NCBI GenBank assembly: GCA_024645105.1
Contig: JAHEGM010000010.1
Span: 1-33,916, forward strand
Source: Rhodoluna sp.
GTDB taxonomy: Bacteria; Actinomycetota; Actinomycetes; Actinomycetales; Microbacteriaceae
Length of the DNA stretch: 33,916 bases
Direction: 5' to 3'
The notes under the pieces were generated by a model. That model was not told the DNA's origin. It saw only the letters and a program-made list of their open reading frames with translations, and did no database searches. The translations under genes and the position numbers were made by a program. Below, in pieces: positions 14,603 to 18,177 of this stretch; the stretch's first letter is position 1; each line of letters begins with the position of its first letter.

Positions 14603-16825
14603 TCACGAGAACTTTCGCACCAATCTTCTGGTGCGCATTAATCGCATTCCTTTTATTGTGCCCACCGCGGCAAAGGAAATTGCCAACGCTCCAAATGCCA
14701 TGGCCGCATAACTTATCCATTGATTATTCGAAACCACAAATGGTTTTGCCGCAGTTGGATTTTGAATCGTGATCTGCGGTTCATTTTCAGAATCAAAAGG
14801 TCGCGATTGGGCAACCGGCTCTAGATCTTCCTGCAGGCTTGGAGTGAACGCGTAGGTAGAAGCTAACGGCGCCAAAGTTGATTCCTCGTAAACCTCAGAT
14901 TCCGCTAGAACATCAACCGGTACTGCCGGTTCGGCAGGTGGTGCCGGTGCCGACGGTGAAGCTGTCGCAGGTGGTTCGGCCGGAGGTGCTGCAGCCGGCG
15001 GAGCGGCCGAAACCGTAGGCGCCGGGCTGGTAATCTGGGCCGGAGTTGGCGTTGGGGTTGGAGCAGGTTGCGCAACCTTGGTGGTTACCGCAGAGGCACG
15101 CACTGTTGCCGGCCCGGTATTGCCCAATGCATCAGAGTACGAATTGGTATTCATCAGCATCTGCACAGTTCCATCACTGCAACCGGTGGTTTCAACTAAG
15201 AATTTCAAGCCAGCGGTAGCTTCAGTAACTGAAACCGTGCAGTTTGACGCCGCACCAATCATCAAGAAATCACTAGCGCTGATGCCGGTTACCGCCTCAC
15301 TGAAATTAATTTCAAATGCCGGGCTCAGATAGCTTGTGCTTTCAGGGGTAACCCAAACACCAACCGGTGCGGTTCTATCAATTAATACTGCCGTGGCAAT
15401 GGTTGGAGCAGCTGGCCCAATATTGCCGGCCAAATCTGAAACTGAGTTTGCAGCCAGGCTAAGTTCAGCGCTGGCGGTATCGGTGCAATTTGTAATATGC
15501 AAAGAGTAGTTTGACTCGCTGCCAGCAATGTTGCCAAGCTGACAACCGGCGCCCTGCAAAGAAAAGTCGGCTGCTGCTAAACCGGTGATCGGCTCAGAGA
15601 AAGTCAGCGCATACTGCAGAGTGGTTGCGGCGTTTGGTGAACTTGGCGCCGTAACTGTGACCTGCGGAGCGATTCTTTCAATCACTACATCGGCAGCCGT
15701 TTTTTCTTGTGCTGGGCCTGCTAAAGCACCGGAGACAGAATTTGAAAGCAGGGTAAGTTTCAACGTGCCCACACCACAACCGGAAACTGTCACCGAATAA
15801 GTTGTTGCACTTCCAGTGATAGAAACCATTGTGCAGGTTGCCGTTGAACCGGTCATCGCAAAATCGGAATTGCTAAGTCCAGTTACTGCTTCGTTGAAGA
15901 CAAGGTTGTAGCTTAACGATGTGGCGTTAGTCAAAGTGTTGCTAGCCGCAAAAGTTGTGACCGATGGCGGCATGGCATAGGTAAGAATTGCCAGCCCGGC
16001 ACCTGATCGGTAGCCACCGGTGTGCGAGACACTGCTGGTTTGAACCGAGTGACTCCAAGAAGAACCACCACCGCCACCGCCAGCATTGGAACAACAGGTG
16101 TCGATATCGGCACCGCCACCGCCACCTCCGTAAAAGCCTCCGCCGCCGCCTCCGCCGCCAGATACATAACTTGAACCGCCAACACCGCCGACGCCAAAGT
16201 CACCCGTGCTGCCCCAGCTGCCACCATTTGGGTAGCCGCCATTACCACCCGATGACTGGGTAGCTCCAGAGCCGCCTTGGCCTTGACCGCTGGTGCCGGC
16301 CGATGCGTTTAGTCCTCCTGCGTTTCCACCGGTACCTCCGCTGAATCCTCCGGACCCACCGCCGCCACCGGCCACAGCGATCCTGTCGTTAATAGAGGTG
16401 GTTGATCTGATATCGGTTGCCCCACCGCCGGAGCCTTCGTCACCGCGGCCGCCGCCGGCATTGCCGCCTCCGTTAAAACCACCGGCTGCTCCAGAGCCCT
16501 GGGCTCCCGCGCCACCAACATAAATGTAGAGCGAGCTGGGTACCGAGGTTAGGTTGCCGGTGACTCGGCCGCCGAGGCCGCCCGATCTTCCGCCCTGAGC
16601 GCCCATCAGATCAAACGAGATGTTTTTAGCACCTGTGGGTGGCGTCCACAAATAGTAATCGCCATTGGCTTCGAAGGTCACGGTGCATGAGGCTCCAACA
16701 CAAACTGGTGTTGGATTGCTGTTCACTGCCCGAACCGATTGTGCAACCAATCCCCCGACCAGCACAGCAAGAATTCCTGCGATCGAGATTAGCTTCGACC
16801 TGAGCTGTGTGTTTTTCTTGTGCAT
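14603..16825 (-). CDS. Large secreted, membrane-anchored glycine-rich protein with three Ig-like repeats
   Basis: A 740-aa predicted surface protein. A basic n-region (MHKKNTQLRSK) and hydrophobic core make a signal peptide, probably cleaved after SVRA near 33. Residues about 50-285 form an ALK/LTK-type glycine-rich domain with the family-typical GGGATDIR and long Gly runs. Three tandem Ig-like repeats follow (about 286-580), each with F(N/S)E(A/P)(V/I)TG(L/I)xxxDF and its own Cys pair. A Pro/Ala/Thr-rich spacer (about 590-650) then leads to a transmembrane helix and the basic tail RTRRLVRKFS. There is no LPXTG. I use the ATG at 16825, since the track's GTG extension runs through the hairpin and DnaA-box region. 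Function unknown; adhesion or envelope structure is likely. Confidence 0.85.
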   Translation of the reverse strand: MHKKNTQLRSKLISIAGILAVLVGGLVAQSVRAVNSNPTPVCVGASCTVTFEANGDYYLWTPPTGAKNISFDLMGAQGGRSGGLGGRVTGNLTSVPSSLYIYVGGAGAQGSGAAGGFNGGGNAGGGRGDEGSGGGATDIRSTTSINDRIAVAGGGGGSGGFSGGTGGNAGGLNASAGTSGQGQGGSGATQSSGGNGGYPNGGSWGSTGDFGVGGVGGSSYVSGGGGGGGGFYGGGGGGADIDTCCSNAGGGGGGSSWSHSVQTSSVSHTGGYRSGAGLAILTYAMPPSVTTFAASNTLTNATSLSYNLVFNEAVTGLSNSDFAMTGSTATCTMVSITGSATTYSVTVSGCGVGTLKLTLLSNSVSGALAGPAQEKTAADVVIERIAPQVTVTAPSSPNAATTLQYALTFSEPITGLAAADFSLQGAGCQLGNIAGSESNYSLHITNCTDTASAELSLAANSVSDLAGNIGPAAPTIATAVLIDRTAPVGVWVTPESTSYLSPAFEINFSEAVTGISASDFLMIGAASNCTVSVTEATAGLKFLVETTGCSDGTVQMLMNTNSYSDALGNTGPATVRASAVTTKVAQPAPTPTPTPAQITSPAPTVSAAPPAAAPPAEPPATASPSAPAPPAEPAVPVDVLAESEVYEESTLAPLASTYAFTPSLQEDLEPVAQSRPFDSENEPQITIQNPTAAKPFVVSNNQWISYAAMAFGALAISFAAVGTIKGMRLMRTRRLVRKFS
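14616..14635 (+). terminator. Hairpin downstream of purU inside the convergent gene
   Basis: CGCACCA, loop ATCTTC, TGGTGCG: a 7-bp perfect stem starting 17 bases after the purU stop, located in the last codons of the convergent glycine-rich gene. There is no clear T-run after it, so termination is tentative. Confidence 0.35.
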
Positions 16826-16836
16826 GTAAAAAGCAA

Positions 16837-16867
16837 ATAACTCCGACAAGAAACTTGTCGGAGTTAT
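16837..16867 (-). terminator. Intrinsic terminator of icd, abutting the next gene's start
   Basis: ATAACTCCGACAAG / CTTGTCGGAGTTAT is a perfect 14-bp stem with a 3-nt loop. On the minus strand it is followed by TTTGCTTTTT, a good U-tract, making a strong intrinsic terminator about 40 nt after the icd stop. The glycine-rich gene's ATG follows the U-tract by only two bases, so the hairpin could also act as an attenuator of that gene. Confidence 0.75.
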
Positions 16868-16872
16868 CCACA
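16864..16872 (+). promoter_or_regulatory. DnaA-box match TTATCCACA
   Basis: An exact match to the strongest classical DnaA box, overlapping the end of the terminator stem. A second box lies 27 bp away in the same orientation. No dnaA, dnaN, rpmH or AT-rich unwinding region is nearby, so this is not an obvious oriC; binding is an inference. Confidence 0.45.
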
Positions 16873-16890
16873 CAGCCCGAGGGCTATAAG

Positions 16891-16899
16891 TTATGCACA
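16891..16899 (+). promoter_or_regulatory. DnaA-box match TTATGCACA
   Basis: Matches the TTATNCACA consensus exactly and has the same orientation as the box at 16864, spaced 27 bp start to start. Between them is a small GCCC-GA-GGGC inverted repeat. It lies eight bases downstream of the icd stop on the minus strand. Confidence 0.4.
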
Positions 16900-16907
16900 G
16901 ATCGTGC

Positions 16908-18125
16908 TTAGGCCATGCGCGCCTGAAGGTTCTCTGCTAGTGAGGCAAGGAACTCGTCTGTGGTCTGGTAAGCCTGGTCCTTGCCAACAAGTGCGGCTAA
17001 GTCCTTGGTCATTTTTCCTGACTCAACGGTCTTTACAATCACGTCTTCTAGAGTCTCGGCAAACTTACGAACCTCAGGAGTGCCATCAATCTCGGCGCGA
17101 GCAATCAATGCACGAGTCCAAGCAAAGATAGATGCAATTGGGTTGGTTGAAGTCTTCTTGCCTGCCTGCCAGTCGCGGTAGTGACGAGTCACGGTACCGT
17201 GCGCAGCCTCTGCAAGAGTGGTCTTGCCGTCAGGTGTGGTTAGCACCGAGGTCATTAGACCAAGTGAACCAAAGCCCTGTGCAACTGTGTCTGACTGAAC
17301 GTCGCCGTCGTAGTTCTTACAAGCCCAAACATAGCCACCCTCCCACTTGAGAGCTGCGGCAACCATGTCGTCAATTAGGCGGTGCTCGTAGGTGATGCCC
17401 GCAGCCTTGAACTTGTCTGCATACTCGGCGTCAAATACTTCCTGGAAGGCATCCTTGAAGGCGCCGTCGTAGGCCTTCAGGATTGTGTTCTTTGTTGAAA
17501 GGTAAACCGGGTAGTTGCGTGACAAACCGTAGTTGAACGATGCACGTGCAAAGTCACGAATTGAATCCATGTAGTTGTACATACCCATTGCCACGCCACC
17601 GTGTTCTGGGTAGTCGGCAATCACGCGAGTTACTGGCTCGCCGCCGTCGGCTGGTGTCCAGGTAATGGTAACCTGACCCTTGCCCGGCACCTTGAAGTCT
17701 GTTGCCTTGTACTGGTCACCGTGTGCGTGACGACCAATGATGATTGGCTTTGTCCAGCCTGGCACCAAGCGAGGAACGTTCGAGATGATGATTGGCTCGC
17801 GGAAAACAACTCCGTCAAGAATGTTTCGGATAGTTCCGTTTGGAGACTTCCACATCTGCTTCAGGTTGAATTCGGTTACACGTGCCTCATCAGGAGTGAT
17901 GGTTGCACACTTCACACCAACGCCGTGCTTGCGGATTGCATGTGCGGCATCGATTGTGATCTGGTCGTTGGTTTCGTCGCGCTTTTCAACCGATAGGTCG
18001 TAGTACTCAAGGTCTACATCTAGAAAAGGGTTAATCAAATTGTCTTTGATGTTCTGCCAGATGATTCTGGTCATTTCGTCGCCGTCTAGCTCGACGATCT
18101 TGCCTACTACCTTGATTTTTGCCAT
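16908..18125 (-). CDS. icd: NADP-dependent isocitrate dehydrogenase, animal/IDH1-type
   Basis: TCA enzyme making 2-oxoglutarate, CO2 and NADPH, probably a homodimer. The 405-aa protein resembles the eukaryotic cytosolic IDH group rather than the E. coli form: [13 protein letters not shown] at the N-terminus, [24 protein letters not shown], and the NADP-binding [13 protein letters not shown] with Arg and His in the positions associated with NADP preference. I moved the start to the ATG at 18125, which has AGGAG six bases upstream; the track's 12 extra residues precede this RBS. It is divergent from the amylase gene; a possible -10, TAGGCT on the minus strand, lies at 18178-18183. A strong terminator follows it. 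Confidence 0.95.
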
Positions 18126-18177
18126 CTGGCGCTCCTGTAATTCGTACTTCTTGGGCCGCATTGCCCAATCAATCTCT

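Follow-up and report, generated by a model that had tools for sequence, protein, structure and literature searches.

The locus examined here raises the question of why two DnaA boxes stand in tandem in a short gap downstream of icd, away from dnaA and dnaN. The window, by which we mean the whole stretch of 33,916 nucleotides that was analysed, belongs to an incomplete Rhodoluna assembly (Microbacteriaceae, freshwater Actinobacteria) of 1.14 Mb in 97 contigs. The gap is 82 bp long (16826-16907) and separates two genes on the - strand. Upstream is icd (16908..18161), which encodes NADP-dependent isocitrate dehydrogenase; downstream is a gene for a glycine-rich surface protein of 740 amino acids (14603..16825) with an ALK_LTK_GRD glycine-rich domain, Big_12 repeats and a hydrophobic segment close to the C-terminus. 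As set out below, the surface-protein gene is the one that the boxes would regulate, and icd is a neighbour to which they do not belong.

On the + strand the inner box reads TTATCCACA (16864-16872) and the outer box TTATGCACA (16891-16899), with 27 bp from start to start. Both are best read on the - strand, that of the genes, where the outer box is TGTGCATAA and the inner box TGTGGATAA. The coordinates, shared orientation, spacing and 82-bp gap beside icd given in the initial annotation were all confirmed in the sequence. Its placement of the pair away from dnaA/dnaN also holds, with the dnaA-dnaN origin boxes lying approximately 245 kb away in the closed congener genome G006.

The DnaA-box consensus is TTWTNCACA (PMC5835720). 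It occurs twice in the window against 3.3 expected, so there is no enrichment. For TTATNCACA pairs on one strand and no more than 50 bp apart, the expectation is approximately 0.0003 per such window and 0.01 per genome, in a test that is post hoc because it was picked once the pair had been seen. The unusual feature is the proximity of the two boxes, not their number. The rarity first ascribed to these sites applies to the close tandem pair, and not to the single 9-mers, whose number is not above chance.

Conservation of the boxes and of the hairpins around them

We examined the surface-gene leader in 30 congeners. The motif TGTGNAWAA begins 47-49 nt before the surface-gene ATG in all 30 (47 nt in the window), and all 30 boxes, like both boxes of the window, fit TTWTNCACA. 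The sample includes four congeners in which the terminator hairpin of icd is decayed and six in which the surface gene is not beside icd (G005, G017, G029, G069, G070 and G076). The box is kept in each of these six and reads TGTGGATAAC every time. One of the six, the closed genome G017, lacks any match to this icd, an absence that suggests its replacement or loss in that lineage, and the surface gene of G017 lies elsewhere. At loci where icd is followed by a different gene (L027 and L029-L031), the box pair is missing; L029 has just one TTTTCCACA, within an unrelated palindrome.

Because the box stays when the gene leaves icd, and the pair is absent when another gene follows icd, the box appears to be owned by the surface gene. 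At L056 and L061 the apparent start of a divergent gene is only some tens of bases from the box on its upstream side, which should confine the surface-gene promoter to the segment between box and ATG. The inner box is very probably a promoter element of the surface gene and not of icd. The initial suggestion that DnaA might control the following gene therefore fits as regards gene control, since the box is fixed at 47-49 nt and moves with the gene; DnaA binding itself is plausible.

The outer box is a lineage-limited second copy. In 15 of the 30 surface leaders another TGTNNAWAA is found 26-28 bp farther upstream than the inner box (shuffle mean 0.01), and the tandem pair is genuine yet restricted to some lineages. 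Conservation in relatives, which the initial annotation had named as the check for both boxes, is accordingly complete for the inner box and found in only half of the sample for the outer one.

Between the two boxes of the window is a small stem-loop, AGCCC/GGGCT (16872..16887, - strand). In 11 of the 15 two-box leaders the between-box sequence has a better fold than 99% or more of its shuffled versions, and a stem-loop is seen in the same place in L054, L055, L064, L072-L074, L076-L078 and L080. Its sequence differs among relatives (AGCCC/GGGCT, AGGCC/GGCCT, GTCAAAG/CTTTGAC, GGCAAGT/ACTTGCC), so the pairing has been preserved by changes on both sides. Every significant between-box fold has icd upstream, and this suggests that the stem is part of the icd 3' UTR.

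The second hairpin of the gap is the intrinsic terminator of icd, which spans 16871-16833 on the - strand (feature 16833..16871) and has a 5' arm that overlaps the inner box. The strong terminator described at the outset, with its stem reaching into the first box, is real. Folding of the 82-bp gap gives -39.4 kcal/mol (z = -7.9), and the hairpin has the GC-rich stem and following T run of an intrinsic terminator. It is nonetheless separable from the inner box. A strong hairpin is mostly confined to loci with icd upstream; it is decayed in L056, L058, L060 and L061, where icd is not upstream, and in L082 the sequence of the hairpin arm differs with the box retained. The overlap of stem and box is, judging from these comparisons, incidental.

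The same layout at other genes and in other genera

A scan of four genomes for TGTGNAWAA followed by 37 to 41 nucleotides and ATG gave 33 matches, against 6 with the reversed pattern. The real gene starts among these matches included further surface or pilus genes, and two families derived from the scan were traced across the genus. The MHIED family is the first gene of an operon that also encodes a SAF/CpaB-like protein and a CpaE/MinD-like ATPase, and 21 of 28 loci have the box, oriented and placed (47-49 nt) as at the surface gene. Genes for a secreted PKD-domain protein have it with this orientation and spacing in 26 of 30 loci, with at most one mismatch. Across 312 open reading frames (ATG start, at least 180 aa, from the genus loci retrieved, target genes counted in), the distance of 47-49 nt accounts for 65 boxes, and all other distances up to 120 nt together for 23.

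The fourth gene family is cpaF, whose product is a TadA-family ATPase by best match, with a score under NCBI's cut-off. In Rhodoluna the leader of cpaF is longer, and its box stands 66-69 nt from the start. Elsewhere in Microbacteriaceae, in other genera with genomes of 45-76% GC, the box is found in 20 of 27 cpaF loci, and 19 of these 20 boxes are 45-50 nt from an in-frame start. In DnaA orientation these 9-mers read TTATCCACA (12), TTGTCCACA (5), TTTTCCACA (2) and TTTTCAACA (1), and the five genomes with the TTGTCCACA form are GC-rich. Many loci are kin by descent, so the counts are not independent; what is independent is the occurrence in four unrelated gene families and in approximately 19 genera outside Rhodoluna. 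The comparisons support a family-wide surface-appendage element, apparently common to Tad pilus, CpaB/CpaE-type, PKD and adhesin genes.

Some further sites lie outside these counts. The Rhodoluna SAF start has a box 47 nt before it, inside the end of the MHIED gene, and it was left out because it may reflect coding conservation (Ser-Val-Asp-Asn). G006 (L231) and G017 (L268/L110) have a second T2SSE ATPase gene with an inverted box, TTATCCACA/TTATGCACA when read on the gene strand, 59 nt ahead of its ATG; this too was left out. A gene with a weak ThiF match (L095/L233, G006:407961) has TGTGAATAAC 47 nt before its ATG and is a possible regulon member.

These distributions bear on three accounts of the pair that involve no promoter function. 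Chance is the simplest, and shuffling the window does not lower its TTWTNCACA count; conservation in every congener sampled, at a fixed distance, together with recurrence in other gene families and genera, makes coincidence scarcely credible. The initial annotation had also offered a DnaA titration or reactivation site, of the kind represented by datA and DARS, which two near-consensus boxes in tandem would suit. A datA/DARS-type site would be a box cluster conserved independently of the neighbouring gene. Here the boxes accompany the surface gene when it is relocated, their distance to the ATG is fixed, half of the loci have a single box, and the pair is missing after icd if another gene follows. 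The conserved unit is one box, or two in half of the loci, at a fixed promoter position, and the titration account is highly improbable. The remaining account derives the box from RNA structure, as a by-product of icd termination or as a component of a riboswitch or attenuator RNA. It draws on the overlap of the hairpin 5' arm with the box and on the covarying stem between the boxes. Against it, the box is intact where the hairpin decays in non-icd settings, which argues that it is not a by-product of the hairpin; the box-bearing MHIED, PKD and cpaF promoters are without this hairpin; and an Rfam search returned nothing beyond one chance-level match. We regard an RNA origin of the box as very improbable, and both the by-product and riboswitch versions were rejected on the ground that the box outlasts decay or change of the hairpin.

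Promoter layout and the candidate binding protein

The MHIED and PKD promoters share a -10-like hexamer, nAnnnT, at about -12..-7 from the start codon, and many surface promoters have TACATT one base farther upstream. A conserved -35 element was looked for in the surface, MHIED and PKD promoters and none was seen. In the window the presumed -10 region of the leaderless promoter is TATTTGCT (16832..16839, - strand), assigned from its position. It is a poor match, as it is in the nearest relatives, and clearer hexamers occur in other relatives (TACATT, AATAAT, TATCTT). Because the -10-like hexamer is near -12..-7, the layout implies that the transcripts would be leaderless, with the mRNA starting at the ATG. 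By analogy with known promoters, the box at about -47..-39 would then occupy the place where activators overlapping the -35 region bind. We rejected the box as a sigma-factor -35 element, as approximately 26 bp separate the 9-mer from the -10-like hexamer and about 15-19 bp are needed.

The mechanism that we propose begins with a protein that reads TGTGNAWAAC, the opposite-strand form of the DnaA box, and sits at about -47 to -39. The bound protein would help RNA polymerase to start a leaderless mRNA at a promoter with no recognisable -35 element. The outer box may have a helper role. The same layout would drive the Tad pilus ATPase operon, the CpaB/CpaE-type operon and the secreted PKD protein, which together would constitute a surface-appendage regulon. 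The likeliest protein is DnaA, and pilus and adhesin expression would in that case be tied to the level or nucleotide state of DnaA. The chances of the whole chain, from activator site through leaderless promoter and surface-appendage regulon to binding by DnaA, appear to us evenly balanced.

DnaA is established as a transcription factor at nrdAB and dnaA in E. coli, at gcrA, ftsZ and podJ in Caulobacter, and at nurR in S. meliloti; in the nrdAB case it can be an activator that stabilises promoter-bound RNA polymerase (PMC8203912). The present element resembles these DnaA-regulated promoters in having DnaA boxes in promoters outside oriC. It differs in its targets, which are pilus and surface genes, in having usually a single box of one orientation 47-49 nt from a presumed leaderless start, and in that DnaA binding is putative. 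The site at approximately -43, beside or overlapping an absent -35, is like that of class II (CRP-type) promoters, whereas it is asymmetric and 9-11 bp long and the CRP site is a palindrome; a CRP-type site was rejected for want of a palindrome. Near-consensus DnaA boxes away from oriC are shared with datA and DARS of E. coli, but those are clusters of boxes acting on DnaA, and here there are one or two boxes in a fixed promoter place. No description of a DnaA-box element in the promoters of Tad pilus or adhesin genes, or of this fixed leaderless layout, turned up in the open-access papers searched. Overall, the element appears to work like an activator promoter, and its membership of a DnaA regulon is putative.

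The geometry of the promoter also bears on the sign of regulation. DnaA represses some promoters, including its own (PMC8203912), and the box is close to the promoter, so that the boxes might be DnaA sites serving as a repressor operator or roadblock. The box lies upstream of the -10 and of the -35 region, with no conserved -35 seen, and this suits an activator better. A repressor role is unlikely, and the inner box probably acts as an activator site.

As to the identity of the bound protein, on balance we lean slightly towards DnaA at the inner box. The oriC, dnaA, gyrB and dnaB boxes of Rhodoluna use the same 9-mer, with TTATCCACA the commonest there. Variation among promoter boxes is mostly at the positions left open by TTWTNCACA, and the invariant positions are largely those of the DnaA box. 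TTGTCCACA is a familiar actinobacterial DnaA box, and its presence in five GC-rich genomes counts in favour of DnaA, as does the short, asymmetric form of the putative binding site. The same promoter element and regulon might instead be served by a dedicated transcription factor with a DnaA-box-like site (YTGTGNAWAACT). At the two positions that follow the 9-mer, C and T are favoured more in promoter boxes than in replication-locus boxes, and box position 5 is freer in the promoter boxes (the rows share ancestry), which favours a dedicated activator. Two variants point the same way: TTTTACACA occurs in nine surface promoters (9 of 77 promoter boxes) and TTATCAACA, which is outside the DnaA consensus, in 4 of 77. 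The TTTTACACA form is bound very weakly by E. coli DnaA, the only DnaA for which affinities are known (PMC5835720). Most promoters have one box only, which also speaks against the proposed mechanism, as does the poor -10 region of the window, and the targets are pilus and surface genes rather than replication genes. Where box types at replication loci and cpaF were compared (TTATCCACA vs TTGTCCACA), G122 agrees and G097 disagrees. That the invariant and variable positions are for the most part those of the DnaA box, with TTGTCCACA in GC-rich genera included, weighs against a dedicated activator.

A named candidate for such an activator comes from the competence/Flp pilus locus Mlut_14650-14660 of M. 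luteus, which likewise has SAF/CpaB-like and CpaE-like genes; the work on that locus points to an HTH_17 protein and, unlike the present case, describes no DnaA-like box (PMC8467076). In two genomes from other genera, G097 (L337) and G158 (L341), an HTH_17 gene that is the apparent counterpart of the competence-linked Mlut_14660 lies beside the SAF/CpaB gene and divergent from it, and the SAF operon of G158 has the box (TGTGGATAAC) 48 nt before its start. In two closed Rhodoluna genomes no clear equivalent of the regulator was seen. The HTH_17 hits of G006 and G017 are two that resemble the Rv2175c type and one by a primase-like gene, none adjoining the SAF gene, so an Mlut_14660-like protein is unlikely as the binder. 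A dedicated activator of some kind is nevertheless a possibility of some substance, if a doubtful one.

If DnaA is the binder, surface appendages would be directly tied to the replication cycle. In its broadest form the proposal makes DnaA an activator of surface-adhesin and Tad pilus genes throughout the family Microbacteriaceae, working through one precisely placed box at leaderless promoters. We hold this tentatively, at a little under even chances; were it true, adhesion, and perhaps pilus-dependent DNA uptake, would be coupled to the replication cycle. The element bears on how competence and Tad pili are switched on in Actinobacteria. In M. luteus, tad loci are essential for transformation, and the upstream signals and regulatory cascade are stated to be unidentified (PMC12849477). 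A short, fixed-position operator common to Tad operons and an adhesin gene offers a handle, as whatever protein binds it would regulate these genes. The freshwater bacterium Rhodoluna lacicola undergoes natural transformation and has working gene inactivation (PMC11577799), and in so tractable an organism standard biochemical methods should suffice to identify the binder.

Other DnaA boxes were noted in passing. A dense cluster lies upstream of dnaB, apart from the dnaA-dnaN origin boxes, in G000 (contig C85:12139-12350; L016-L020, L089), at L275, and in G006 and G017 (L271/L272). It may be a site through which DnaA controls dnaB, or a second locus of DnaA binding. TTATTCACA is found upstream of recA in G000 and G006 (L022, L235), and in G000 a DnaE2-like locus (L021/L093) has TTATACACA next to an SOS-like box.
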